Assembly: GCA_012839295.1 (NCBI GenBank)
Contig: DUNO01000013.1
Location: forward strand, 1-64,000
Reading direction: 5' to 3'
Origin: Clostridiales bacterium
Lineage (GTDB): Bacteria; Bacillota; Clostridia; Lachnospirales; Lachnospiraceae
Length of the DNA: 64,000 nucleotides
This document shows, piece by piece, positions 39,145-58,718 of this stretch; positions within the stretch are counted from its first letter, which is position 1; each line of letters begins with the position of its first letter. A program made the position numbers and the translations under genes. The notes below the pieces were generated by a model. That model saw nothing but the letters and a program-made list of their open reading frames with translations. It did not search any database and was not told the origin of the DNA.

Positions 39145-39978
39145 ATGGTAGTACAACACAATATGGCAGCAGCCAACACAAACAGACAGTTAGGTATTAC
39201 AACTGGAAATCTTGCAAAATCAACTGAAAAGTTATCTTCCGGTTATAAGATTAACCGTGCAGGCGATGATGCAGCTGGTCTTTCCATTTCTGAAAAAATG
39301 CGTGGACAGATCAAAGGTCTTGACCGTGCGTCTTCAAATGCACAGGATGGTATCTCTTTAATTCAGACAGCAGAAGGCGCTCTGAATGAGACACAGTCTA
39401 TTTTACAGAGAATGAGAGAATTAACAGTACAGGCATCCAATGATACTAACGTTACAGCAGACCGTGAGGCGATTGCTGAAGAAGTTAGGGCATTGACAAA
39501 GGAAATCGATCGTATTGCTAGCCAGACTGAATTCAATACGATGACACTCTTAAGCGGTGGCTTTACAGATAAGATGCTTCAGGTTGGTGCTAATACAAAC
39601 CAGATGATTACTTTCTCAATCAGTGCTATGACAACAACAAACCTTAGTGTGACAAGTCAGCAGACAGCAGAATTAATTTCCGTTGCTACCAGTGGTGGTG
39701 ATGTTACAGGAATCATCTCTGCCGTTAATACAGCTATTACTAAGGTTTCCACTCAGAGATCCAAGCTTGGTGCTCTCCAGAACAGACTGGAGCATACTAT
39801 TGCTAATGCAGATAATACTTCTGAGAACTTACAGGCTGCTGAGTCCCGTATCCGTGACGTTGATATGGCAAAAGAGATGGTTAAATACTCTAAGGACAAC
39901 ATCCTTCAACAGGCTGCTCAGTCTATGTTGGCACAGGCAAATCAATCAACACAGGGAGTGTTATCATTGTTACAGTAG
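39145..39978 (+). CDS. hag: Flagellin
   Basis: A 277-residue flagellin. The N-terminal D0/D1 pattern is 'NRQLGITTGNLAKSTEKLSS' and 'YKINRAGDDAAGLSISEKMR'; the C-terminal is 'ESRIRDVDMAKEMVKYSKDN' with 'ILQQAAQSMLAQANQ'. The central D2/D3 domains are absent, so this is a short form. The exposed middle (residues about 150-200) is very rich in Ser and Thr, the acceptors that Maf-type enzymes modify. Strong leader, promoter and terminator show it is a single, highly expressed gene. It is the likely target of the glycosylation island that follows. Confidence 0.95.
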   Translation: MVVQHNMAAANTNRQLGITTGNLAKSTEKLSSGYKINRAGDDAAGLSISEKMRGQIKGLDRASSNAQDGISLIQTAEGALNETQSILQRMRELTVQASNDTNVTADREAIAEEVRALTKEIDRIASQTEFNTMTLLSGGFTDKMLQVGANTNQMITFSISAMTTTNLSVTSQQTAELISVATSGGDVTGIISAVNTAITKVSTQRSKLGALQNRLEHTIANADNTSENLQAAESRIRDVDMAKEMVKYSKDNILQQAAQSMLAQANQSTQGVLSLLQ

Positions 39979-40367: not shown

Positions 40368-40416
40368 TGATAGACTACCATGGGCTAGAATATTATCATA
40401 GATGTGGGAGGACGTT

Positions 40417-43023
40417 ATGGACTATTATAATCGCAATATGGAACTTCTCGAAAAATATAATCACAAGCTATATTCTTGTATTAAGGAATATGAAGATGAT
40501 AGGAGTAGCTTTACACCTGTCCATGTATATTCCTCCCCGACAAAGGATGGAAATGCTGCCCTTACGGTTTCAATAAATCGACAGGAGTTCAGGCTTAATA
40601 GCATATATTACCCAATACAGGAAGCGCAAAGATGGTGTTCACAGTTTGAGTTTTCGAATTTAGGAATTGTAATATCTTTATATGGATTAGGAAATGGAAT
40701 ATTCCTTAGAGAACTGATCAATAGGAAGGGAAACGAGGATATTATCCTGGTCTACGAACCTTGTATGGAAATTTTTTTCCATGTAATCAATAATTATGAT
40801 ATTACAGATATATTGGAAAATGAAAAAGTATTAATTTCTGTAGAGGATTTCAATGAAGAGGATTTCCGTGAGGCAATTGTAAGGCATGTTTATTGGACAA
40901 ACCTGGGTTCACAGATTGTATGTATGCATCCGCAATATGATAAAGTCTTTATGGAGAAAAGTATTAAATTCCTCCAGATCCTAAATGGGCATAATAACAG
41001 AACAATTGTCAACCGCAATACGAATGCATTTTTTGGAAGAGATGCGGTTGAGAATACAATTAAAAACCTAAGATTTGTGCAGAATGCAATGACAGTAAAG
41101 GATTTGGCGAAAGAAAATTTTGGGGATGTACCGGCAATTATTGTATCTGCAGGTCCTTCCTTAGATAAGAATATTCATCTTTTAAAGCAGGCAAAAGGAA
41201 AAGCAGTTATTGTGGCGACTGATACGGCAATGAAATTCCTCTATCGCCATGATGTGGTGCCTGATTTTTTTGTAACATTGGACGCAATGAAACCGGAGAG
41301 CTACCTGGATGATCCACGGTTTATGGAAGTGCCGTTATTTTGTAAAGTGGAGGCAAACTGGAGGATTTTGTATAAGCATAATGCGAAAAAAATATATTGC
41401 AGCAGTCATAGCTATATGGAAAATATGTTTGAGAGGCTCGGAAAAAAAATATCGGACTATACTACAGGCGGTTCTGTAGCTACAGGAGCCTTTTCCGTCT
41501 GTGCTGAGATGAAATTTAAGCATATTATATTAGTTGGACAGGATTTAGCTTTTGCAGGTGACCGAACCCACGCAGGGGAGCTATCAGACCATGTGCATGG
41601 GGAAGAGGAAGGAATTCGATATATTGAAGGAATCCATGGAGGCAGAGTTAAGACGCGTCATGACTGGTATATCTATTTGCAATGGTTTGAGGATTCGATT
41701 CAATTAGTGAAGGATTCTATTGAGGTGATTGATGGGACAGAGGGCGGAGCTAAAATCCATGGTACCAAGATTATGACGTTGCAGGAGGCGATTGACCGGT
41801 ATTGTAATGAGGATATCAATGTTGCAGAAATACTTGATAAAACATCAAATACGCTATCGGACGGAGAAATTAGCCAGCTGCATGGTTTTATGCGGGAAAG
41901 TATTCAGGAATTGGATGTTATCTACGAAAAGGTGCATCAGGCAGAGCTTTATTGTGACCAGATTATTGAAACGTTAAAGAACAATGGAGCTTTGAATGAT
42001 GAAGTTATAGATAAGTCTGCGGAGCTGGAGAAAATTAATAATTTGATTGAAAGCTGTATGGCATATAGATTAATTGATGATTATATATCGGATGTCTCCC
42101 TTCACACATTATCCGAGCTCTACAGATTTACAGGAGATGAGGAAGTGGATCGGATTCATACCTTTCAAAGGGCATGTGTTTTTTACCAGCTAATGTCTTC
42201 TGCGGTAACTGCGATTAAGCCTATGCTGGAAGAGGCTGTCGCTACTTTTTGGGACGGGGAGAATAGAGATGAGATGAATAAGAATAAGAAAAAGGTAGTT
42301 ATTATACAGGCCAGGGTAGGGTCTACAAGATTGAAAGGGAAGGTAATGCGTGATTTGGCCGGTAAAAGTATTCTAGCCCATGATATCGAACGAATTCGCC
42401 AAGCAAAATTGGTTGATGATATTGTTATAGCCACTACGACTAAAGAACAAGATGATGTAATTGTACAGGAAGCAAAGCAACTGGGAGTAAAGGTGTTTCG
42501 CGGAAGTGAAGAGGATGTTCTTTCTAGATATTATTATGCGGCTAAAGCGACAAGAGCGGATATTGTTATAAGGATAACATCGGATTGTCCGTTAATTGAT
42601 CCTTATGTATTAGATCAAACAATTCAATACTATCTGGAGCATGAGTATGATATTGTTACCAATGCGGGGGTGGAACTGGAGAAGAGGACATTTCCCAGAG
42701 GGCTTGATGCTGAGGTGTTTTCCTATGATATGTTAAGATTGGCGTATCAGTATGCAAAGAAAAGGTATCAGAGAGAACATGTTACGCCATATCTATATGA
42801 GCATCGTACAACGGGATATGTAACGAATGATACAAATTGTTCTGGATACCGCTGGACATTGGATACGGAAGAGGATTGGCAGTTAATCAGCGAAATTTAT
42901 CAATATTTATATCATGGGAAGCATGATTTTTACTTTAAGGATATACTGGCTTTGATGGAAGCACACCCGGAATTAATAGAAATCAATAAGCATGTAGAGC
43001 AGAAAAAATTAGGTTCAAAGTAA
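40417..43023 (+). CDS. Maf glycosyltransferase fused to CMP-sugar synthetase (PseF/SpsF type)
   Basis: An 868-residue two-domain protein. The ATG at 40417 has GGGAGG 5 bases upstream. Residues 1-610 are a motility accessory factor (Maf, DUF115 type), with 'LYGLGNGIFLRELINRKGNE', 'IIVSAGPSLDKNIHLLKQ' and 'TTGGSVATGAFSVCAEM'. Maf enzymes move nonulosonic acids from CMP to flagellin Ser/Thr. Residues about 626-868 are an SpsF/acylneuraminate cytidylyltransferase: 'IIQARVGSTRLKGKVMRDL', 'ITSDCPLIDPYVLD' and 'YRWTLDTEEDWQL'. It would make CMP-pseudaminic acid and hand it straight to Maf. An internal ATG at 42274 might also give the second domain alone. No separate PseF gene is seen in the window. 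Confidence 0.85.
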   Translation: MDYYNRNMELLEKYNHKLYSCIKEYEDDRSSFTPVHVYSSPTKDGNAALTVSINRQEFRLNSIYYPIQEAQRWCSQFEFSNLGIVISLYGLGNGIFLRELINRKGNEDIILVYEPCMEIFFHVINNYDITDILENEKVLISVEDFNEEDFREAIVRHVYWTNLGSQIVCMHPQYDKVFMEKSIKFLQILNGHNNRTIVNRNTNAFFGRDAVENTIKNLRFVQNAMTVKDLAKENFGDVPAIIVSAGPSLDKNIHLLKQAKGKAVIVATDTAMKFLYRHDVVPDFFVTLDAMKPESYLDDPRFMEVPLFCKVEANWRILYKHNAKKIYCSSHSYMENMFERLGKKISDYTTGGSVATGAFSVCAEMKFKHIILVGQDLAFAGDRTHAGELSDHVHGEEEGIRYIEGIHGGRVKTRHDWYIYLQWFEDSIQLVKDSIEVIDGTEGGAKIHGTKIMTLQEAIDRYCNEDINVAEILDKTSNTLSDGEISQLHGFMRESIQELDVIYEKVHQAELYCDQIIETLKNNGALNDEVIDKSAELEKINNLIESCMAYRLIDDYISDVSLHTLSELYRFTGDEEVDRIHTFQRACVFYQLMSSAVTAIKPMLEEAVATFWDGENRDEMNKNKKKVVIIQARVGSTRLKGKVMRDLAGKSILAHDIERIRQAKLVDDIVIATTTKEQDDVIVQEAKQLGVKVFRGSEEDVLSRYYYAAKATRADIVIRITSDCPLIDPYVLDQTIQYYLEHEYDIVTNAGVELEKRTFPRGLDAEVFSYDMLRLAYQYAKKRYQREHVTPYLYEHRTTGYVTNDTNCSGYRWTLDTEEDWQLISEIYQYLYHGKHDFYFKDILALMEAHPELIEINKHVEQKKLGSK

Positions 43024-47941: not shown

Positions 47942-47967
47942 ACTTAAGAGGAAAAGGATGTGGTTTG

Positions 47968-49095
47968 ATGTATATACCTTATGGAAGGCAATGGATTGAA
48001 GAAGATGATATACAGGCTGTCGCCCAGGCATTGAAGTCAGATTATTTGACGACTGGTCCAAGGGTGGAAGAATTTGAAAGGTACGTAGCGGATTATGTTG
48101 GAGCAAAATATGCAGTTGCTGTCTCGAATGGTACAGCTGCCCTTCATGCGGCATGTTATGCGGCGGGAATCGGTGAAGGGGATGAAGTAATAACGTCTCC
48201 GATTACCTTTGTAGCATCAGCGAACAGTGTCTTATATTGTGGAGCCAAACCTGTATTCGCCGACATCGATCCGAATACCTATAATATCGATCCGGCAGAG
48301 ATTAGGAATAAAATAACACCGAGGACAAAAGCTATCATCCCGGTTCATTTTACAGGGCAGCCCTGTGACATGGATAAAATCAGGGAAATTGCATTAGAAC
48401 ATAATTTAATTGTAATAGAGGATGCCGCTCATGCCTTAGGTGCCGATTACAAAGGGAAGCGGATTGGGAGCATATCAGAGATGACAACCTTTAGCTTTCA
48501 CCCGGTTAAGCATATCACGACCGGTGAGGGGGGGATGATTATGACCGACCAGAAAGAGCTGTATGAACGTTTGTTGATGTTCCGAAGCCATGGGATCACG
48601 AGGGATTCCTCCAAGATGACGGCTCATGATGGTGCCTGGTATTATCAGCAAATTGATCTTGGATTTAATTATCGTATTACGGATGTACAATGTGCCCTTG
48701 GTCTTAGTCAGATGAAAAAAATAGACTTATTTATTAGACGGAGAAGGGAAATTGCGGCAAGATATAATGAGGCTTTTAGACAGATGGATGGAATTAAAAT
48801 ACCATTTCAGGCGGAGGGATGCCATAATAGCTGGCATTTATATGTCATCCAGGTGCTTAATGAGGACAGGCAGAAGGTATTTGACGGACTAACCAAGAGA
48901 AACATTGGTGTTAATGTCCATTATATACCGGTATATACACAGCCATATTACCGTAACAATGGATACGCGGATATTATGTGCTCCCATTCAGAAAGGGCAT
49001 ATGCAAGATTCATCAGCCTTCCTATGTATGCAAAATTAACGGATCATGAGCAGGATTATGTTATAGAGCAGGTCAAGCTCCTTGTGCAGGAATAG
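47968..49095 (+). CDS. pseC: PseC-like aminotransferase (DegT/DnrJ/EryC1 family)
   Basis: A 375-residue PLP enzyme that adds the C4 amino group in pseudaminic acid synthesis. The start used is the ATG at 47968; a TTG lies 3 bases upstream. Motifs are 'VSNGTAALHAACYAAGIGEG', 'EDAAHALGADYKGKRIGS' and the PLP lysine in 'SFHPVKHITTGEGG' (near residue 180). With the PseB dehydratase at 55157 it would make UDP-4-amino-4,6-dideoxy-N-acetyl-altrosamine. In Bacillus the equivalent is SpsC. The assignment to Pse rather than another amino sugar rests on the full set in the window. Confidence 0.85.
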   Translation: MYIPYGRQWIEEDDIQAVAQALKSDYLTTGPRVEEFERYVADYVGAKYAVAVSNGTAALHAACYAAGIGEGDEVITSPITFVASANSVLYCGAKPVFADIDPNTYNIDPAEIRNKITPRTKAIIPVHFTGQPCDMDKIREIALEHNLIVIEDAAHALGADYKGKRIGSISEMTTFSFHPVKHITTGEGGMIMTDQKELYERLLMFRSHGITRDSSKMTAHDGAWYYQQIDLGFNYRITDVQCALGLSQMKKIDLFIRRRREIAARYNEAFRQMDGIKIPFQAEGCHNSWHLYVIQVLNEDRQKVFDGLTKRNIGVNVHYIPVYTQPYYRNNGYADIMCSHSERAYARFISLPMYAKLTDHEQDYVIEQVKLLVQE

Positions 49096-49179: not shown

Positions 49180-50118
49180 TTATGGAATACAGTCTGTAAA
49201 TATATCAGTAGCCTTTTCAGCATAATGAATATATTCTTGTCCAAAGATCTGAAATTCTGATTCCGGCAGGATATCATCATCCTTCCATGGTTTGCGTGAG
49301 CCAGCATAGTGTATGATATGGGTGGCATCATACACCTTTTCTGTAACATCTAAAAGGTCATTTGAAAGTGGGGCAGTACCATATCCGATTTCCTGTAAAA
49401 AACCATAATCAACCAAATCAAATGTTCCATTGGATAGATTAGGGCGAACGATATACTTTCTCGGCGGACAATTGTATAGAGCCCATGGCACATAAGTTAC
49501 TTTCTTGCAATACAATTCATTCAAAGCATCCTGGTCAACATATACGTAGTGGTCGAAATTTTCTTTGATTTTATTTAAAATAGTATGAGCTGCATTATTC
49601 AGCCTCAGGTACTCTAAATTAAAGAGCATGACACCGGAATTAAAATAACTTGCATCGGAAGGCACATTAGTTCTTTCCCTATGGATTCCCAGACCCTTTC
49701 CTAGGATGGAATAAATATCTTCACAGACGGCAAAGGCATAGTTTTCAATATTGGTCTGATATAGTTCCATAATACTGCCCTTTATTAATACATCAACATC
49801 CATATATAATACCTTTGTCATATTCTGTGGTAAAAGGTCAATGCCGAGTATTCTATAGTACATTTCTACTGGATATCCGTTTTTACCCATAAGCTGATTT
49901 CTTAAAGATGCTTCTACATAGAGGGGAAATACGGTTTTACCCTCCCAATGATACGCGAATTTTTTTAATGCTTCTACCTCAACCTGGTTCAAGCTGGAAT
50001 ATAAAATATATACATTGATATTAACAGGATTATTATCAAACAAGGAGCATAGTGTCGTTATGGTTGGTAAAAGATAATTTGAATTAGTGACAAGCATAAC
50101 ATCAATTGTAGGATTCAT
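49180..50118 (-). CDS. GT8 family glycosyltransferase
   Basis: A 312-residue enzyme. The ATG at 50118 is preferred over a longer frame because AAAGGAAT precedes it. GT8 landmarks are 'DVMLVTNSNYLLPTITTL', 'VLYMDVDVLI' with the metal-binding DxD near residue 105, 'YFNSGVMLFNLE' and 'DQDALN'. These enzymes use UDP-glucose or UDP-galactose. It is the last gene of the minus-strand Pse operon and overlaps the PseI gene by 17 bases, so it probably adds a hexose to the same glycan. Confidence 0.85.
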   Translation of the reverse strand: MNPTIDVMLVTNSNYLLPTITTLCSLFDNNPVNINVYILYSSLNQVEVEALKKFAYHWEGKTVFPLYVEASLRNQLMGKNGYPVEMYYRILGIDLLPQNMTKVLYMDVDVLIKGSIMELYQTNIENYAFAVCEDIYSILGKGLGIHRERTNVPSDASYFNSGVMLFNLEYLRLNNAAHTILNKIKENFDHYVYVDQDALNELYCKKVTYVPWALYNCPPRKYIVRPNLSNGTFDLVDYGFLQEIGYGTAPLSNDLLDVTEKVYDATHIIHYAGSRKPWKDDDILPESEFQIFGQEYIHYAEKATDIFTDCIP

Positions 50119-51175
50119 TTGGGATTCCTTTCGTAGGATATTGTTGACTATTTTCCATGCTAAGAGGTGTACCGAAGGGTATGTCCATGGTAGCATAGCC
50201 TCCATCTATTAGCATCTCGTAATGCCGTGTGTGTAGTCCGCATCCGGGACGGATAGAACGGATATTTACAGGAGTAAAGGGTTCCCCCTTTTTTATATCC
50301 TTTACAGCAAACAGACTACGGCGGTGTTGATAGCTTTGCTGCTCTGATTCTGTAGGTGCATATGATGGAATGCCGATAGCTGCCTCAACGTTGCGGATAT
50401 CTCTCACTAGATTTGAGAATTCTTCTTTTTCCATGGAGAATTCACTATCGACAGTTTTTTCTGCTCTGCTAATACAAAAATGTTTTTCAATTACGGAGGC
50501 TCCCATTCCGACGGCAGCAACGCTTGCCAGACTTCCCATAGAATGATCCGATAAACCAACGGGAAGCTGGAATTTTTGCTTCATATCAGGAATCGTAGAT
50601 AGGTTCATGCTAGGATAGTCTGCCGGGTAAGAGCTACAGCATTTTAGGAGAACGAGGTTTTTGTTATTCTGGCTATAAACCGTATCAATAGACTCCTGAA
50701 TTTCCTCAGGTGATGCCATTCCACAGGACATAATGATGGGTTTGCCTGTCGAAGCCACTTTTTTTATTAAAGGAATATCTACTAATTCAAAGCTTGCAAT
50801 TTTATAAAATTCAATACTAAGATCCTCCAAAAAGTCAACAGCCGTAAAATCAAAGGGAGTAGAAAGAAAATCGAGGCCAAGCCGTTCGGCCTCCTTTTTA
50901 ATCTCTCCTTGCCATTCCCATGGAGTATAAGCTTTCTGATAGAGATCGTATAAGTATTGCTTTTCCCACAATCCGGTTTTGACTAAAAATAAATCAGAAT
51001 GGCAGTCAATCGTTATAGTGTCTGCTGTATAGGTTTGGATTTTAATGCAATCCGCTCCTGCGACTTTGGCTGCCCGTACAATTTCCATGGCATTTTCTAA
51101 GCTGCCACCATGGTTTCCGGACATTTCTGCGATGATATATGTTTTGCCGATAGCAAGGTAATTCAATAATTTCAT
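50102..51175 (-). CDS. pseI: Pseudaminic acid synthase (PseI, NeuB family)
   Basis: A 357-residue enzyme that joins the 6-deoxy sugar to phosphoenolpyruvate to give pseudaminic acid. The start 'YIIAEMSGNHGGSLENAMEI' and 'ADCIKIQTYTADTITID' follow Campylobacter PseI closely, better than NeuB for sialic acid. 'VGLSDHSMGSLASVAAVGMG' and 'VIEKHF' are catalytic-barrel motifs, and the C-terminus has the SAF/antifreeze-like domain ('RPGCGLHTRHYEMLIDGG'). The gene is co-transcribed with PseH and the ACP pair. Confidence 0.9.
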   Translation of the reverse strand: MKLLNYLAIGKTYIIAEMSGNHGGSLENAMEIVRAAKVAGADCIKIQTYTADTITIDCHSDLFLVKTGLWEKQYLYDLYQKAYTPWEWQGEIKKEAERLGLDFLSTPFDFTAVDFLEDLSIEFYKIASFELVDIPLIKKVASTGKPIIMSCGMASPEEIQESIDTVYSQNNKNLVLLKCCSSYPADYPSMNLSTIPDMKQKFQLPVGLSDHSMGSLASVAAVGMGASVIEKHFCISRAEKTVDSEFSMEKEEFSNLVRDIRNVEAAIGIPSYAPTESEQQSYQHRRSLFAVKDIKKGEPFTPVNIRSIRPGCGLHTRHYEMLIDGGYATMDIPFGTPLSMENSQQYPTKGIPNESYN

Positions 51176-51255: not shown

Positions 51256-51801
51256 TTATTCAAATAAAAAATGTTCAAATTTAGTCTTGGAACGTAAAGT
51301 TTCCCATTCGGAAGAAAGAATAGAACCTACGGATATGTCATAGTATGTGCCATTTTTAAAAACATGCTGCCTCAATATACCTTCCTTTTTACTTCCACAG
51401 AGATCATGCAACTGAATGACCTGGTTATTTAATACAAAAGTCTCGTTACATAGCTTATTTAGTTTTAAAGTTTGAAAAACATAATCATACAAATTCCACT
51501 CCAAATACATGGCTAGCTTCAGTGATCTGACCGACTGGTTGGCAATGTAATAGCCCCAGTTGCATCTTTTATTGATATAGTCAATATTAACGAGGTTAAT
51601 TGAACCGGAGGGAACGTCATCCACGCAGATAACCCAGTGGCGCTGGGTGGAATCATTTTTTATACGTTCAAACCATTTTTTTTGGATATCAATATTAAGC
51701 TCTGGATCGGTGTTCATGAAACGGGTAATATCCGGGCGCATTCTCCATTCCATTACCTGCTGCAAATGATTCTCTCTTAAAAGCTCCATCCTCACGTTCA
51801 T
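51256..51801 (-). CDS. pseH: PseH-like N-acyltransferase (GNAT)
   Basis: A 181-residue GNAT enzyme, which in the pseudaminic acid pathway acylates the 4-amino group. Landmarks are 'LQQVMEWRMRPDITRFMNTD' and 'GSINLVNIDYINKRCNWGYY', both typical of PseH/SpsD. The coenzyme-A loop is not clear: the usual Q/RxxGxG/A is replaced by 'ANQSVRSLKLA'. It follows an FkbH-like protein and an acyl carrier protein by only 6 bases, which raises the possibility that the acyl donor is an ACP thioester and not acetyl-CoA. Confidence 0.8.
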   Translation of the reverse strand: MNVRMELLRENHLQQVMEWRMRPDITRFMNTDPELNIDIQKKWFERIKNDSTQRHWVICVDDVPSGSINLVNIDYINKRCNWGYYIANQSVRSLKLAMYLEWNLYDYVFQTLKLNKLCNETFVLNNQVIQLHDLCGSKKEGILRQHVFKNGTYYDISVGSILSSEWETLRSKTKFEHFLFE

Positions 51802-51807
51802 TGTGGG

Positions 51808-52035
51808 CTACTCCTTGTCAATAAATTTAAAAAAATCTTCTACGGATTCTATTTCCAATGCAGCCTCAATTGGGATGGTAAGACCCAACTGCTGTTTTAG
51901 TTCTGAAAGAATCATTAATTGCATTAGGGAATCCCAGTTCTCAATCTCGGAAATTTGTGTAGCGGCATTAATCGTGTTCGGCTTGAAACCAAGTGTCACG
52001 TTAATGATTTGTATAATTTTTTCTTTCATTTTCAT
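51808..52035 (-). CDS. Acyl carrier protein of the pseudaminic operon
   Basis: A 75-residue carrier protein. The phosphopantetheine site is the serine in 'ENWDSLMQLM' (residue 36), with the usual acidic helix following ('AALEIESVEDFFKFI'). It overlaps the FkbH-like gene by 4 bases (ATGA) and precedes pseH by 6, so it is a dedicated carrier and not the housekeeping fatty-acid ACP. It probably presents an acyl or hydroxyacyl group made by the FkbH-like protein. Confidence 0.88.
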   Translation of the reverse strand: MKMKEKIIQIINVTLGFKPNTINAATQISEIENWDSLMQLMILSELKQQLGLTIPIEAALEIESVEDFFKFIDKE

Positions 52036-53669
52036 ATCCTTTCTAAGTTGTTATTTACATGATAGATTCGTTTTGGACGAAGTGCCAAATCAATTTCGTA
52101 GATCACTTTCTCTGAAGAGGACGAGATTTTATGATAGCCAAGGCTGTCATAAAGTTCATGTACCGGTATGTTTTTTGAGGTTGGAATATACTCAGCAGTC
52201 AGCTTGTAGTAACCCCTTTTGAGTAAATCGCATTCAACATAGTCTATAATATAATTTTCAATCAATTTCCCCATAATACGGCAACTCATAACAAAGCTAT
52301 CGATATTTGGTAAGTGTTTTGTAATATCTATCAGTACTGCCGCAATAATACCGTAATCACCAAATTTGTCAGCAGCCCGGAATAAATAAACGAGCCAGTT
52401 ATCTTGTTCTATTCGGGAAAGATCTTCTTCTCCATAACGCCTTGTAGTTAAATTAAATTGGTTTGTTTTTTGGAGCAATTGAAGTAATCTTCTTTTTGAG
52501 GAATTGTTATAGGCTTCTCTGGTGATGCCAATTTGCAGGTCTTGAAGAAAGGTATTAAAATCAAGTTTTTTTGATAACTGGATTCTTCTGCCGTTTTCAT
52601 GGTATTGCTTGGTTTTGTCTGCATCCTCTTCGGTCATGCGTAGCTTTTGAAAATAACGATAATAGATATCCTCAAAAAAAACGGGCAAGTTATCCGGCGT
52701 GGTGGGAAAATCAGGAACTTCAATCATCGGAAATAAGGTGCGGATGGCCTCTCTTTCTGTAGGCATATCATCAATAAACACGAAAGAATCCAGACTCAGG
52801 TTCAGTTCAAGAGCTAACTCCTGCATGTTGTCGGCCTTAGTTTGCCAATTGATACGGAGTGCAGAAAAATCCTCTTCCCGGAGAACCATGTGGGGATGGT
52901 TGCGAATTACTTCCAGGGCATCATTAATATTGTTTTTAGAATTGATGGCAAGAATTACGCCATGTTTCTGCATCTGTTTGATGATTTTTTGAGCATCATG
53001 ATACAAGGCACCAACTTTATCATTGGAGAGTTGGATTCCGAGTGCACCCAATTCACCCACAATACCACCCCAAAGGGTATTGTCAAGATCCAAAACCAAT
53101 ACCTTTTTAGGTACCCGGATTAAAAGCTCCATTTGGAGAATAATCTGTTCAGCAATCAGTTTGCAACCTTGTGCTGTGAATGGGATCTTTCCAAGATACC
53201 AGAGCTGCTCGGAAAAAAAAGAAGATGTGCCTACACGATCTATTAGCCGTTGCACAGGGAAGCGATGAACCTGTGTGGTGTTTTCTGTCAATTGTGCCAG
53301 GCAATGCATCCAATATTGTCCGATACGGTAATGAAGCATCTCATCAATATCCTCAATAGCAGTTGTTCTGAACAATGTATCAGATATAAAATATTGTATG
53401 TCCGGTTGCATGCAGGAACGAAAGTGGCCAAACCATTCGTCAATAGCGCTGGCGGCCTCTTCATAGTTATAAGAGTTTTCCGTCAGGGCTGAGATATCCA
53501 CTATAAAAAAGATAACAGATGGTGAAAATTTTGCCAAATCAGAATTAGTATCTAACATCAGAGAGAAGGCATTTCCGTAACCTTGGGGAGGGAACACATT
53601 TTCACGGGAGGGCAATAATTTATATATCATGTCGATATTCACATTAGAGAGTATGGCCAGTTTTTTCAT
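52032..53669 (-). CDS. FkbH-like HAD-IIIC protein
   Basis: A 545-residue protein. The ATG at 53669 gives the usual start 'MKKLAILSNVN' and follows AGGACAGGTG. Residues 1-180 form an SGNH-like N-terminal domain. Residues 188-330 are a HAD domain with catalytic aspartates in 'VLDLDNTLWGGIVGELG' (about 194) and 'FIDDMPTEREAIRTL'. Residues 380-545 look like a GNAT-type domain. FkbH proteins load a three-carbon glyceryl or related unit from bisphosphoglycerate onto an ACP, with loss of phosphate. The next gene is that ACP. An acyl donor for PseH is the simplest role. Confidence 0.8.
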   Translation of the reverse strand: MKKLAILSNVNIDMIYKLLPSRENVFPPQGYGNAFSLMLDTNSDLAKFSPSVIFFIVDISALTENSYNYEEAASAIDEWFGHFRSCMQPDIQYFISDTLFRTTAIEDIDEMLHYRIGQYWMHCLAQLTENTTQVHRFPVQRLIDRVGTSSFFSEQLWYLGKIPFTAQGCKLIAEQIILQMELLIRVPKKVLVLDLDNTLWGGIVGELGALGIQLSNDKVGALYHDAQKIIKQMQKHGVILAINSKNNINDALEVIRNHPHMVLREEDFSALRINWQTKADNMQELALELNLSLDSFVFIDDMPTEREAIRTLFPMIEVPDFPTTPDNLPVFFEDIYYRYFQKLRMTEEDADKTKQYHENGRRIQLSKKLDFNTFLQDLQIGITREAYNNSSKRRLLQLLQKTNQFNLTTRRYGEEDLSRIEQDNWLVYLFRAADKFGDYGIIAAVLIDITKHLPNIDSFVMSCRIMGKLIENYIIDYVECDLLKRGYYKLTAEYIPTSKNIPVHELYDSLGYHKISSSSEKVIYEIDLALRPKRIYHVNNNLERI

Positions 53670-53934: not shown

Positions 53935-54981
53935 ATGGTATATATTCGTGCGGATGCTAATGCATACATTGGTAGTGGTCATATCATGAGATGCATGGCG
54001 ATAGCAGAAGAGCTGGTAAAGGCAGGGGAAGCAGTAACCTTTTTGTTGGCAGATGATGTTAGCTCAGAAAAGGTAAAACAAATGGGATGCCCCTTTCTGG
54101 TATTACATACTGATTGGAGTGACTTAAATAAGGACATGGATCAACTGATCCAATTTATCATAGGAAACAAGGTCGAGAAGCTTCTTGTTGATTCGTATTA
54201 TATTTCTAAGGAAACATTACATGAATTGAGTCAATATACCAAGGTTATGTATATAGATGATTATTCGAATGATGTAATTGATATCCAGAGCATTGTACAT
54301 TATGGGTTAATCTATGAGCAGGAATTTTACAAGGAATATGATAGGTTGGAAGTGGTAAAAGAGAAGAAGAACCATACCAGACTATTGCTTGGAAGTCAAT
54401 ACATACCATTGCGCAAAGAGTTTCAAGACATTGTGTTTGATGATAGGCTCAGGAAGAACAATGTCTTAATTATGTCGGGTGGTACAGATACCTATAATGT
54501 CATGGGGACACTGCTTTATCATATTATTAATGACAAGCGATATGACAGCTATCATTTTCATATCATTATTGGATTATATAATGAATTTAAAAATGATATT
54601 ATCAGACTTGCGGAAAACAGAGATAATATTACCACTTACTTTAATGTTGGTAATATGGCAGAGCTGATGAAAGCCTGCGCAGTCTCTATTAGTGCAGGGG
54701 GATCGACCCTGTACGAGCTTTTTTCTGCCCGGACACCTACTATATGCTACACATTTGCTGATAATCAGAATTTTGGAGCCGAGATGCTAGGAAGCATGGG
54801 GTATGTATGTTATATAGGCGATATAAGGGGAAATGTAGCTTCTTCCGCTAAGAGAATTCTTGACCGGATGGAAGAGCTATATTGGGATGAAGCGGGCAAG
54901 AGAGAGATGGTGGAAAAAATGATTCACGCGGTAGATGGAAAAGGAGCCTACCGTATTGCAAGAGAATTAATTAATCTATAA
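53935..54981 (+). CDS. pseG: PseG, UDP-sugar hydrolase of pseudaminic acid synthesis
   Basis: A 348-residue GT-B-fold enzyme that releases UDP from the 2,4-diacylated 6-deoxy-altrose. The N-terminal signature 'RADANAYIGSGHIMRCMAIA' (His 16 is the catalytic base in Campylobacter PseG) and 'SISAGGSTLYELFSARTPTI' near residue 255 are diagnostic. GGAAGGAT precedes the ATG. It is the first gene of the plus-strand operon that continues with PseB. Confidence 0.9.
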   Translation: MVYIRADANAYIGSGHIMRCMAIAEELVKAGEAVTFLLADDVSSEKVKQMGCPFLVLHTDWSDLNKDMDQLIQFIIGNKVEKLLVDSYYISKETLHELSQYTKVMYIDDYSNDVIDIQSIVHYGLIYEQEFYKEYDRLEVVKEKKNHTRLLLGSQYIPLRKEFQDIVFDDRLRKNNVLIMSGGTDTYNVMGTLLYHIINDKRYDSYHFHIIIGLYNEFKNDIIRLAENRDNITTYFNVGNMAELMKACAVSISAGGSTLYELFSARTPTICYTFADNQNFGAEMLGSMGYVCYIGDIRGNVASSAKRILDRMEELYWDEAGKREMVEKMIHAVDGKGAYRIARELINL

Positions 54982-55156: not shown

Positions 55157-56155
55157 ATGTTGAATGGAAAAAATATACTGATTACTGGAGGGACAGGTTC
55201 CTTCGGTAAAAAGTTTATAAAAATGATTTTTGAAAAATATAACCCGAATAAGGTGATCATTTATTCCAGGGATGAATTTAAACAGAGTGTGATGAGAGCT
55301 GAATATGATAACATAGTGGATATGTCAAAAGTTCGTTTTTTCATTGGGGATGTCAGGGATAAGGATCGTCTTTATCGGGCTTTTGACAGGGTCGATTATG
55401 TAATACATGCGGCAGCGATGAAACAGGTTCCAACTTGTGAGTATAATCCTTTTGAGGCGATTAAGACAAATATCCATGGTGCCCAAAATGTTATAGACGC
55501 GGCACTCGATAAAGGAGTAAAAAAAGTAATTGCATTATCTACTGACAAGGCGGTTAACCCGATTAATTTATACGGCGGAACAAAATTAGTATCGGATAAA
55601 CTGTTCGCAGCAGCGAATGCATACGCAGGCGAAAAAGGAACGAGTTTCTCTATTGTACGCTATGGAAATGTAGCTGGAAGCAGGGGTTCCATTATTCCGA
55701 TATTCAATACGATGATTAAGAATGGTGAAACAACATTGCCGATCACTGATTTTAGGATGACCCGTTTTTGGATTACTTTAGAACAGGGAGTTGAACTTGT
55801 ATTAAAGGCTTTGGAAGAATCGAAAGGCGGAGAGACTTACATATCTAAAATACCATCGTTTAAAATAACAGACCTTGCAAAAGCGATGTTACCGGAAGTT
55901 AATATGAAGGAGATTGGAATACGTGAGGGAGAGAAGCTTCACGAAATTATGGTGACCAAAGACGATTCCAGGATGACCTATGAATATGATAAGCATTATA
56001 TTATTTATCCTAATTTTGATTGGATGGATATCTCTAAGCATTTACTGCCAGGTGGGGAATTGGTACATGAGGGTTTTGAATACAGTTCCGATCTAAATAA
56101 GGAATGGTTAAGTGTTGAAGACCTGAAAACAGAGTTAGAGAAAATCAAGCTTTAA
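55157..56155 (+). CDS. pseB: PseB, UDP-GlcNAc 4,6-dehydratase (inverting)
   Basis: A 332-residue SDR enzyme for the first step of pseudaminic acid synthesis. NAD-binding is by 'TGGTGSFGKKFI' (residues 10-21), followed by 'DVRDKDRLYRAFDRVDYVIH', 'AAAMKQVPTCEYNPFEAIKT' and the 'YGGTKLVSDKL' region holding the Tyr-x3-Lys pair. The 'AAAMKQVPTCE' motif marks the inverting C5-epimerising dehydratase. The start has GGGAGGAT upstream. Confidence 0.92.
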   Translation: MLNGKNILITGGTGSFGKKFIKMIFEKYNPNKVIIYSRDEFKQSVMRAEYDNIVDMSKVRFFIGDVRDKDRLYRAFDRVDYVIHAAAMKQVPTCEYNPFEAIKTNIHGAQNVIDAALDKGVKKVIALSTDKAVNPINLYGGTKLVSDKLFAAANAYAGEKGTSFSIVRYGNVAGSRGSIIPIFNTMIKNGETTLPITDFRMTRFWITLEQGVELVLKALEESKGGETYISKIPSFKITDLAKAMLPEVNMKEIGIREGEKLHEIMVTKDDSRMTYEYDKHYIIYPNFDWMDISKHLLPGGELVHEGFEYSSDLNKEWLSVEDLKTELEKIKL

Positions 56156-56209: not shown

Positions 56210-56917
56210 ATGAACATTGCTTTGATTCTAGCGGGAGGGGTAGACCCAAAGTTTCATATGGAGATTCCCAAACAGTTTGTTAGTGTATATAATAGGCCGA
56301 TTATTACATATACAATGGAAGTTTTCCAAATGAACCCTGAGATTGATTACATTGCAGTTGCTTGTTTAAACGGGTGGCAGGAATTGGTGAAATCGTATGC
56401 GAAGCAGTTTAATATATCCAAACTAAGATGGCTTGTAATGGGTGGTATACGAGGACAGGACTCATCCTACAATGGCATAAATGCCTTATATAAAGACTGT
56501 AATCCGGATGACTTAATTATAATTCATGACTCGATCCGGCCATTGGTGTCGAACGAAATCATTTCTGACAGTATAAAAACCTGTAAAAAAAATGGAATGG
56601 GCGTTGCAGCTGTCTGTTCCATGGATACTATAATGAGATCTTCTGATGGCAAGACTGGTGATGAAAGTATTAACCGATATGAGGTGATGCGAGTGCAGAC
56701 ACCGCAAACTTATCCTTTGAAGTATCTTTACGAAGCCCATCAACTTGCAATAGAAAAAGGAATTAAGGGGAATGTTGATACGAACAGCATGATTTCTAAA
56801 CTCGGACGAAAAATATATTTTTCTAAGGGGGCGGATATTAATTTGAAAATCAATACAGTTGAAGATGTAGAAATGTTCAAAGCGCTTTATAAAATAAGAA
56901 ATGATAAAGCTGAATAA
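56210..56917 (+). CDS. IspD/TarI-like cytidylyltransferase, copy 1, degenerate nucleotide loop
   Basis: A 235-residue protein of the IspD/TarI fold, which couples CTP to a sugar-alcohol phosphate. Family features are 'IPKQFVSVYNRPIITYTMEV', 'IIHDSIRPLV' and 'YEVMRVQTPQTYPL'. The N-terminal loop that holds CTP reads 'LAGGVDPKFHMEIPKQF' where active members have 'AGGxGxRxG': two glycines and the arginine are missing. It may be inactive and work as a partner of copy 2 in a heterodimer. ATAGGAGG precedes the start. Confidence 0.78.
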   Translation: MNIALILAGGVDPKFHMEIPKQFVSVYNRPIITYTMEVFQMNPEIDYIAVACLNGWQELVKSYAKQFNISKLRWLVMGGIRGQDSSYNGINALYKDCNPDDLIIIHDSIRPLVSNEIISDSIKTCKKNGMGVAAVCSMDTIMRSSDGKTGDESINRYEVMRVQTPQTYPLKYLYEAHQLAIEKGIKGNVDTNSMISKLGRKIYFSKGADINLKINTVEDVEMFKALYKIRNDKAE

Positions 56918-56932
56918 ACCAGGAGGAACTTT

Positions 56933-57649
56933 ATGAATATAGCTGTTATTCTTGCTGGAGGATGCGGTAAAAGAACAGGACAGGACATACCGAAGCAGTT
57001 TTTGAACGTAGAGGATAAGCCGATTATAATATATACTTTGGAAGCATTCGATAAGCATCCCAATATAGACGGAATAATTGTATCATGTGTAGATGGCTGG
57101 GATGAAATTCTTTGGGCTTATGCAAGGGAATTTAATATTAAGAAACTAAAGTGGGTTGTTATTGGTGGTAACAATGTACAAGAATCCATAGAAAAAGCAT
57201 TGGATGGATTAAGTGGCAGGTGCCATGGTGATGATATTTTATTAATTCATGATGCCATTCGCCCAATGGTATCTCAGGATACCATATCGGACTGTATTGT
57301 AAAGTGTAAGGAATATGGTTCGGGTCTTGCGGCGGTCAGATGCCAGGAAACCATTGTGAGGACTGAAGACGCAATTAAAGGAAACCACAGCATTGACCGT
57401 TCAGAAGTGATGCGGGTACAGACCCCACAAGCGTATCGTTACGGTAGAGTAAGGTGGGCTTTAGAAGAGGCAAAGCGTCGAAATATTGTTGATGAAGTTT
57501 ATATCAATACGTTAATGATTCATGTTGGAGAAATGGTGTATTTTGCTATGGGATCTAATAAAAATATAAAAATCACGACAGCAGAGGATATCGAGATCTT
57601 TACAGCGTTATATAATACAAAGCAAGAAAGCTGGGTAAAAAGTGAATAG
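56933..57649 (+). CDS. IspD/TarI-like cytidylyltransferase, copy 2, intact
   Basis: A 238-residue paralogue of the previous gene, 15 bases downstream with CCAGGAGG. It has the full loop 'LAGGCGKRTGQDIPKQFLNV', 'LLIHDAIRPMV' and 'SEVMRVQTPQAYRY'. It is not housekeeping IspD by context; the TarI-like role of making a CDP-polyol or CDP-sugar is more likely, since an SDR and glycan-transfer genes follow. Confidence 0.82.
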   Translation: MNIAVILAGGCGKRTGQDIPKQFLNVEDKPIIIYTLEAFDKHPNIDGIIVSCVDGWDEILWAYAREFNIKKLKWVVIGGNNVQESIEKALDGLSGRCHGDDILLIHDAIRPMVSQDTISDCIVKCKEYGSGLAAVRCQETIVRTEDAIKGNHSIDRSEVMRVQTPQAYRYGRVRWALEEAKRRNIVDEVYINTLMIHVGEMVYFAMGSNKNIKITTAEDIEIFTALYNTKQESWVKSE

Positions 57650-57665
57650 GCAAGGAAGCGTGACA

Positions 57666-58718
57666 ATGCAGAGAATTCGAGAGAAAGAATTATATCAACG
57701 TCAAATAAGAAGGCTTGCGGATAGTGTTTTAGATTGGGAGCTATTAAGGGATAAGATAATCCTGATTACAGGTGCTACCGGGATGATAGGCGTCTTTTTG
57801 ATAGATGTACTGATGCAACGTAATAAAGAGTTTAATGGTAATATAAAGATTATTGCTATTGGTGGCAATCTGGAAAAAGCAAAAGAAAGACTGGGAATAT
57901 ATTGGAGTGATTCTAAGTTTACTTTTATTCTGCATGATGTAAATGAACCATATTCTCAAGAAATGAGAAATATTGATTTTATTATTCATGCTGCCAGCAG
58001 TACCCACCCGATGCAATATTCCTTGGATCCTATCGGCACAATAAATGCAAATGTGTTAGGGACAAAGAATCTTTTGGAATTAGCCTCTAGGCAGAAAGCC
58101 TGTAGGCTTGTCTTTTTATCATCAGTGGAAATATACGGTGAAAATAGAGGAGATACAGATTTTTTTGATGAAGATTATTGTGGCTATATTAATTGCAATA
58201 CATTGAGAGCATGCTATACAGAAGGGAAAAGGTTGGGGGAGGCACTATGCCAAGCGTACCATTCTGCAAAAAATATTGACGTGGTTATTCCTAGGTTATC
58301 CCGTACTTATGGGCCATCTATGCTTTTTACGGATACAAAGGCAATCTCACAATTTATCAAAAGGGCAGTGCAGAAAGAAGATATTATACTAAAAAGCGAA
58401 GGGATGCAGCTATATTCTTATGTTTATGTAGCAGATGCAGTATCCGCCATACTTACTATCATGTTAAAAGGGGAAAATGGTGAAGCCTATAATGTGGCAG
58501 ATATTGATTCCAATATAACACTGAAAAATCTAGCAGAGTGTTTAGCCAAACTTTCCGGGAAAAAAGTGGTCTATGAGTTGGCTTGTGAGGAGGAGAAAAA
58601 AGGATATTCTATTGCTACTAAGGCACTTTTGGACTCTAAAAAGCTAAAATCAATTGGGTGGGAAAGTATGTATGATATTCATGAAGGCTTGAGACAAACT
58701 TATGAAATGCTGCTTTAA
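57666..58718 (+). CDS. NAD-dependent sugar epimerase/dehydratase
   Basis: A 350-residue extended SDR. The ATG at 57666 has AAGGAAG 7 bases upstream, while an upstream GTG at 57642 has no site. It has the nucleotide loop 'ITGATGMIGVFLIDVL', catalytic Ser in 'LVFLSSVEIYGENRGDTDFF', and Tyr-x3-Lys in 'RACYTEGKRLGEALCQAYH'. It probably reduces or epimerises the sugar that the cytidylyltransferases activate. The exact substrate cannot be told. Confidence 0.82.
   Translation: MQRIREKELYQRQIRRLADSVLDWELLRDKIILITGATGMIGVFLIDVLMQRNKEFNGNIKIIAIGGNLEKAKERLGIYWSDSKFTFILHDVNEPYSQEMRNIDFIIHAASSTHPMQYSLDPIGTINANVLGTKNLLELASRQKACRLVFLSSVEIYGENRGDTDFFDEDYCGYINCNTLRACYTEGKRLGEALCQAYHSAKNIDVVIPRLSRTYGPSMLFTDTKAISQFIKRAVQKEDIILKSEGMQLYSYVYVADAVSAILTIMLKGENGEAYNVADIDSNITLKNLAECLAKLSGKKVVYELACEEEKKGYSIATKALLDSKKLKSIGWESMYDIHEGLRQTYEMLL

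Follow-up and report, generated by a model that had tools for sequence, protein, structure and literature searches.

An FkbH-ACP pair beside PseH: a candidate acyl-supply cassette for flagellar pseudaminic acid in Clostridia

Described pathways for pseudaminic acid (Pse), notably those of Helicobacter pylori and Campylobacter jejuni, provide the background for the locus considered here, which lies within positions 1 to 64,000 of the forward strand of contig DUNO01000013.1 (termed here the window) from a Clostridiales bacterium of the Lachnospiraceae (assembly GCA_012839295.1; genome size 6.36 Mb), and in which genes for an FkbH-like protein and an acyl carrier protein (ACP) directly precede the gene for the acyltransferase PseH. 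The PseH of H. pylori was solved with acetyl-CoA; its Lys133 binds the CoA pyrophosphate and its Asn131 the pantetheine arm, and Tyr138 was proposed as the general acid (PMC4363471; this and the other papers named by PMC accession are cited for those portions of their text drawn on here). Flagellin of C. jejuni carries 7-acetamido-5-(2,3-di-O-methylglyceroyl)amino-Pse, whose formation needs Cj1295, an aminopeptidase-like protein supposed to free N5 (PMC3068675), and the flagellar glycosylation locus of this species includes an fkbH-domain gene, cj1302, together with cj1301, annotated as an epimerase (PMC7099621).

Other pse islands also contain genes suggestive of acyl supply. Aeromonas group II islands hold pseFGHI with genes for an ACP (downstream of pseH), a 3-oxoacyl-ACP reductase, an AMP-dependent synthetase, LuxE and LuxC, and the Pse derivative there has a mass of 376.14 Da (PMC7874193). 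The PseH of Vibrio B9-25K2 carries a fused lipid-metabolism-like domain, a methylmalonyl-CoA-epimerase-like gene follows, and diacetylated Pse has been suggested as the product (PMC7371886). Enterobacterial flagellin islands contain ACP, LuxE, LuxC and FabG genes (PMC4875605), and FkbH-ACP pairs themselves are known from polyketide- or tetronate-like pathways (PMC7489565). Unlike the window, neither the Aeromonas system, where acyl supply is by ligase and reductase, nor the Vibrio system is accompanied by a mention of FkbH in the portions of PMC7874193 and PMC7371886 concerned; likewise, 'acyl carrier' does not occur in the portions drawn on of PMC5109656 or PMC2674064, nor do 'acyl carrier', 'glycer' or 'HAD' occur in the main text of a paper from 2026 that surveyed flagellar Pse loci in Clostridium (PMC13317340). 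The first-pass annotation of this DNA, made by a model from the sequence alone, had stated that no pathway of this makeup was described; feeding of PseH by FkbH-ACP is indeed described nowhere among these sources, but relatives of such a pathway are (PMC7099621, PMC7874193, PMC7371886). Among the matches listed in open PMC, none joins FkbH-ACP to PseH, which is not proof of absence, and no paper on FkbH with O-antigen was found there. No biochemical work on this locus is known to us.

The analysis presented here suggests that FkbH, ACP and PseH probably constitute an acyl-supply cassette that provides flagellin with 7-N-glyceroyl-pseudaminic acid. By analogy with other members of its family, FkbH would take a glyceryl group from 1,3-bisphosphoglycerate, its HAD domain would remove the phosphate, and the ACP would thereby be loaded. 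PseH would then use this ACP-borne acyl group, and not acetyl-CoA, to acylate the 4-amino group of UDP-4-amino-4,6-dideoxy-AltNAc, whose N4 becomes N7 of Pse; PseG, PseI and a CMP transferase-Maf fusion would carry the sugar on, so that flagellin would receive Pse5Ac7Gri (computed residue mass 362.1325 Da; predicted oxonium ion at m/z 363.1398). The corresponding computed residue masses are 316.127 Da for diacetyl-Pse and 390.164 Da for the di-O-methylglyceroyl form, the latter matching the reported C. jejuni mass (PMC4975691).

In comparison with methoxymalonyl-ACP and tetronate pathways, the window shares a stand-alone ACP and an FkbH in which the HAD and Cys residues are conserved, but the acceptor here would be a sugar N-acyltransferase, whereas there it is a dehydrogenase or a FabH-like enzyme. 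In comparison with C. jejuni, it shares an fkbH-domain gene in the locus and, as predicted, a glyceryl-type group on flagellar Pse. Glyceric-acid-bearing Pse on Campylobacter flagellin had been mentioned in the first-pass annotation; the dimethylglyceroyl group of C. jejuni, however, is on N5, di-O-methylated and Cj1295-dependent (PMC3068675), while for the window the position expected from PseH chemistry is N7. Hence the proposed chemistry appears to have a precedent in C. jejuni, while its route and position should differ.

Recurrence of the cassette beside PseH

Within the window, FkbH, ACP, PseH, PseI and a GT8 glycosyltransferase form a minus-strand run from 53669 to 49180, with pseG and pseB on the plus strand. 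The ACP start overlaps the FkbH stop by four bases (ATGA), six bases separate the ACP stop from the PseH start, and PseI is next downstream, so that PseH is linked to pseB, C, G and I. FkbH, ACP and PseH lie where the first-pass annotation had put them, each exceeding the cut-off of its named family (Table 1). Searches of the whole genome find a single FkbH, a single PseH above cut-off (with four weaker GNAT matches below it) and four PP-binding proteins, the cassette ACP included.

The same arrangement recurs elsewhere. PseH-like proteins were sought in 397 genomes from the family of the window and occur in 71 of them (83 rows at E ≤ 1e-15), and the stretches around the best 63 of these 83 rows, window included, were compared, the weakest 20 being left out; most stretches were 12 kb long, some were ended by contig ends, and loci were counted whether or not they had PseB- or PseC-like neighbours. 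PseI is present in 15 of the 61 PseH-like loci considered besides the window. Nine of these 15 loci have both FkbH and ACP, two have an ACP without FkbH, and four have neither; among the 46 loci lacking PseI, FkbH or ACP occurs in none (Fisher p 2.9e-7 for linkage of FkbH and ACP with PseI, a value that only ranks the effect, since the genomes are related and a few contigs are short). A scan of named genomes with an FkbH alignment found the cassette in nine of the best 80 of 567 loci (L149-L151, L156-L159, L163 and L184; L151 is Lachnospiraceae bacterium GAM79, and L159, being on the same contig as L041, was dropped as a duplicate). An alignment was needed as the query: the single window FkbH protein, used to scan genome contigs, retrieved no relative. 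Finally, a PseH alignment was run against 391 genomes of the class; it yielded matches in 19 genomes and added three cassette loci (L270, L272 and L273) from another family, termed f209, in which the order is PseI-PseH-ACP-FkbH-VOC.

In all, 21 cassette loci were found, counting the window. FkbH, ACP and PseH are on one strand in all 20 of the others, and ACP and PseH overlap or are at most 100 bases apart in 18 of these 20, the exceptions being L092 (3.8 kb) and L093 (2.9 kb). In L090, which belongs to another genus, the order flagellin-Maf-FkbH-ACP-PseH resembles that of the window.

Phylogenetic trees indicate how often this pairing may have changed. The PseH tree was built from 43 of 61 aligned rows (near-copies, the L159 duplicate of L041, and distant or short GNATs make up the 18 left out). 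The cassette label requires at least two changes on its well-supported branches, cassette PseHs falling into a Lachnospiraceae type (18 rows, window included) and an f209 type (three close rows, of which L270, the one tested, scores 110 bits against the PseH model). On the FkbH tree (40 chosen rows), the label for linkage to PseH requires at least six gains or losses: in L092, L093 and L163 the FkbH that accompanies PseH belongs to lineages lying off the main cassette clade, and related FkbHs in L042, L152 and L153 have no adjoining cassette PseH. Because so many changes are needed, the FkbH tree implies that FkbH partners are exchanged while the pairing with PseH persists, and no other observation speaks as strongly for a functional link between FkbH-ACP and PseH. 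The proposal that PseH is fed by an FkbH-charged ACP, which the first-pass annotation had put forward, is strongly backed, on comparative grounds, by the recurrence of the cassette, by its conserved order, by the two PseH lineages and by the exchanged FkbH partners; the atypical CoA loop, to which that annotation had also appealed, is weak proof of it. Judged on sequence comparisons, the cassette is real and recurrent, the coupling of its genes is well supported, and the proposal is the best available model.

Carrier and donor-site residues

The proteins that would make and carry the glyceryl group retain the residues expected of them. In an alignment of 20 sequences, the FkbH DxDxT motif, Lys, DD and the Cys of SCR are invariant (D194, D196, T198, K278, D300, D301 and C463, counted from the ATG at 53669); the Asp, Thr and Lys residues are the catalytic ones of the HAD domain, and the Cys is that of the C-terminal domain. 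The protein consists of an N-terminal part like BF1531 (which we take to be SGNH-like), a HAD-IIIC phosphatase domain and a C-terminal GNAT-like domain, and its AlphaFold2 model (pLDDT 88.5) has as its top PDB match 3slr, that is, BF1531, with GNAT folds next. Ser36 of the ACP (within WDSL in the window protein) is invariant across 10 cassette ACPs.

The PseH model (pLDDT 94.4) has the GNAT fold. Its best Foldseek matches are spermidine acetyltransferases, with H. pylori PseH (4ri1) at rank 48 (TM 0.83); at the level of such a model, the former matches tell the fold of PseH, not its donor. The canonical CoA loop of GNATs is Q/R-x-x-G-x-G/A. The window loop, R-S-L-K-L-A, fails this motif in that its first Gly is replaced by Lys, the final Ala being allowed. 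In the alignment with H. pylori PseH, an offset of +6 from native was assumed for the chain numbering, in agreement with Asn131, Lys133 and Tyr138. Thus aligned, window PseH shares with its H. pylori and C. jejuni counterparts (4ri1, 4xpk/4xpl) the fold, an equivalog-level TIGR03585 score, its place in the pse pathway and the pantetheine Asn (N125 for Asn131), but differs from that of H. pylori in its ACP and FkbH neighbours and in having A97 for Gly103, Q127 for Lys133 and H132 for Tyr138. Asn125 is kept throughout the 18 Lachnospiraceae-type cassette PseHs, none of which has Gly at 95 or Lys/Arg at 127 (position 127 being Gly in 14, Gln in three and Glu in one); the loop glycine is present in 20 of 22 non-cassette PseH rows.

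A number of observations weigh against taking these differences as a signature of ACP use, or flagellin as the one acceptor. The Lachnospiraceae-type loop may have had a single origin, so that its 18 cases are not independent. The f209 cassette PseHs (L270, L272 and L273) retain both the Gly (INSGLG) and the Lys, and the glycine is likewise retained by the PseHs of L126, L131, L264 and L265, which have an ACP neighbour without FkbH. Conversely, Lys/Arg at 127 is missing from 10 of the 22 non-cassette PseHs (and present in 12); L106 PseH lacks the glycine, FkbH not being found in its 86%-complete genome; in H. pylori PseH itself Asn replaces the first glycine of the loop, as judged from a gapped alignment; and the glycine is also missing from the GNATs L152, L266 and L269, which are not shown to be PseHs and are off the tree. 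Moreover, some cassette loci have no flagellin gene within the stretch covered (for example L041, 20 kb, whose cassette lies among other glycan genes); flagellin is therefore not the sole possible acceptor. The flagellin locus that contains the L106 gene (5926-6489) also includes transketolase-like halves and one SDR-like ORF.

The loop was considered as a stand-alone marker of ACP use and rejected, L270, L272 and L273 having kept the canonical glycine. The atypical loop noted in the first-pass annotation is real (RSLKLA at residues 92-97) but, given the H. pylori Asn and the f209 cassettes, not diagnostic: it is a lineage trait that fits ACP use without proving it, because three f209 cassette PseHs keep both Gly and Lys.

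Putative acyl-supply variants and competing accounts

PseH occurs beside several other sets of putative acyl-supply genes. A methylmalonyl-CoA-epimerase-like protein is encoded beside, or fused to, the cassette in L090, L092, L094, L113, L149, L163, L270, L272 and L273, as well as near the FkbH-ACP unit of L042 (assigned as Glyoxalase_4 in L090 and L113, and by similarity in the remaining loci). The epimerase-like domain, a neighbour of FkbH/ACP in other cassettes, forms one protein with PseH in L113, which counts in favour of the proposed cassette. Such a protein could invert C2 of glyceryl-ACP, yielding L-glyceroyl there and the D form in the window. A second variant involves MaoC: L089 (5989-6954) has PseH and a MaoC hydratase domain in one protein and in L263 (5589-5984) MaoC is the gene next to PseH, both with the canonical loop (GKGIA) and the Lys kept; L261 (5578-5799) has another PseH-linked MaoC-type domain. 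A MaoC-linked PseH would be of a CoA-fed type, perhaps with a 3-hydroxyacyl-CoA donor for N7, and these contrasting loci fit a matching of PseH to its donor.

In a third variant, PseH and ACP occur without FkbH but together with SDR-like ORFs and either ketosynthase-III-like ORFs or an AMP ligase (L126, L265, L264 and L131; the L264 ACP and ligase and the L265 ACP were called by Pfam, the others by eye). This suggests further acyl-supply cassettes beside PseH, and L131 and L264 resemble the Aeromonas group II islands. The Aeromonas mass of 376.14 Da (PMC7874193) is consistent with the replacement of one acetyl by a C4H6O3 acyl group, either O-methylglyceroyl or dihydroxybutyryl (computed residue 376.148), although hydroxymalonyl (376.112) is also near; the 102 Da moiety given in the same source has the nominal mass of the C4H6O3 group.

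FkbH-ACP units, in turn, are found beside other sugar acyltransferases: a PglD/NeuD-like hexapeptide acyltransferase is near the pair in L042 (Pfam) and, by similarity to L042, in L161, L162, L164 and L165. These associations suggest that FkbH-ACP pairs supply glyceryl to sugar acyltransferases in general, PseH being one client.

Of the accounts that compete with an FkbH-ACP-fed PseH, the one that survives best, though unlikely, is that PseH is an ordinary acetyl-CoA enzyme producing diacetyl-Pse and that the glyceryl group of FkbH-ACP serves a later exchange or O-acylation. The C. jejuni system lends it plausibility, inasmuch as the glyceryl-type group there sits at N5 and depends on Cj1295, the 5-acetamido group has been proposed to be exchanged (PMC3068675), and cj1302 is in the same locus (PMC7099621); the canonical loop of the f209 cassette PseHs also fits an acetyl-CoA enzyme. 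Against it, the ACP adjoins PseH in most cassettes even as the FkbH lineage changes beside PseH, and PseH is the only acyltransferase family among the window-region proteins run against Pfam or NCBIfam. Unlike in C. jejuni, moreover, there is no match in the genome to DUF4910, which we take to be the family of Cj1295 (a test only as good as that label).

Slightly less probable still is that PseH is ACP-dependent but that its acyl group is lactyl, or a C2-epimerised or O-methylated glyceryl, in place of plain D-glyceryl. Some FkbH domains load lactate, the epimerase-like genes of the nine cassette loci named above could serve such a modification, and L090 and L092 have a methyltransferase-like ORF (identified by eye, with no domain search). 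In the window, however, no glyoxalase/epimerase and (again unlike C. jejuni) no methyltransferase family was found among the region's proteins run against Pfam, and the four Glyoxalase_4 proteins above cut-off are all elsewhere in the genome. That FkbH-ACP lies beside the pse genes by accident and serves an unrelated polyketide- or tetronate-like product, as such pairs do elsewhere (PMC7489565), is highly improbable, given the recurrence of the cassette alongside pse genes at 21 loci and no ketosynthase family among the same proteins run against Pfam.

The surrounding locus and its implications

Coordinates of the cassette and of the genes around it are collected in Table 1. The flagellar block ends with the flagellin gene, after which come the Maf fusion, glycosyltransferases and pseC. 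The GT8 gene probably starts at the ATG at 50118, judging from the sequence, and would then overlap the end of pseI. No PseF above cut-off was found in the genome; its sole match to the PseF model falls within the Maf fusion, on the CTP-transferase domain (34.7 bits against a cut-off of 205.7), and for this reason that domain is likely to be the CMP-Pse synthetase. Against the PseD model the fusion scores 148 bits (cut-off 670). With its KdsB-like CTP-transferase domain, it would combine nonulosonate activation and transfer in one chain. Two IspD-like genes are present at 56210-58718, and an IspD-like cytidylyltransferase and SDR pair is close to FkbH-ACP units in the window, L042, L161, L162 and L165. 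Promoter-like sites (34, against 24.7 with sd 5.2 in shuffled sequences) and terminator-like sites (9, against 4.4 with sd 2.6) were scanned for but not used as evidence.

Table 1. Positions of the cassette genes and of associated features in the window
Feature	Position	Strand	Basis and proposed role
FkbH protein, 545 aa	52032..53669	-	TIGR01686, 256.4 bits (cut-off 146.65); proposed glyceryl loader
Acyl carrier protein, 75 aa	51808..52035	-	PF00550, 31.4 bits (cut-off 20.8); proposed glyceryl carrier
ACP Ser36 codon	51928..51930	-	Alignment of cassette ACPs; expected phosphopantetheine attachment site
PseH GNAT, 181 aa	51256..51801	-	TIGR03585, 122.7 bits (cut-off 93.1); proposed glyceroyl-ACP:UDP-4-amino-sugar N-acyltransferase
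PseH residues 92-97 (RSLKLA)	51511..51528	-	Alignments; CoA pyrophosphate loop position, first Gly replaced by Lys
PseI, pseudaminic acid synthase	50102..51175	-	TIGR03586, 458.8 bits (cut-off 340)
GT8 glycosyltransferase	49180..50205	-	PF01501, 109.9 bits
PseC aminotransferase	47965..49095	+	TIGR03588, 522.7 bits (cut-off 423.5)
PseG UDP-sugar hydrolase	53935..54981	+	TIGR03590, 184.4 bits (cut-off 153.6)
PseB dehydratase	55157..56155	+	TIGR03589, 538.4 bits (cut-off 407.8)
Maf/PseD-like flagellin nonulosonate transferase with fused CTP transferase domain	40402..43023	+	PF01973 (217-385), PF02348 (632-804)
Flagellin	39145..39978	+	PF00669, PF00700; likely acceptor

More generally, it seems reasonably probable, if a little less so than the pathway proposed for the window itself, that a branch of PseH enzymes draws its acyl group from a dedicated, glycolysis-charged acyl-ACP and so makes 7-N-glyceroyl-Pse (the D form, or the L form where the epimerase-like protein is present) on the flagella and other surface glycans of Clostridia, and that pse loci are modular, with acyl-supply cassettes--acetyl-CoA, MaoC/CoA, FkbH/ACP, and ketosynthase or ligase with ACP--swapped beside PseH. 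The N7 acyl group is easily assumed to be acetyl because PseH is present, as in the portions of PMC7371886 drawn on here; a gene-based rule for predicting this group would follow if the proposal is true. An ACP-dependent step would then have its place in nonulosonic acid biosynthesis, flagellar glycans would be linked to glycolysis through its 1,3-bisphosphoglycerate pool, and the cassette provides a genetic point of reference for the unsolved question of where the glyceroyl groups on Campylobacter flagellin come from.

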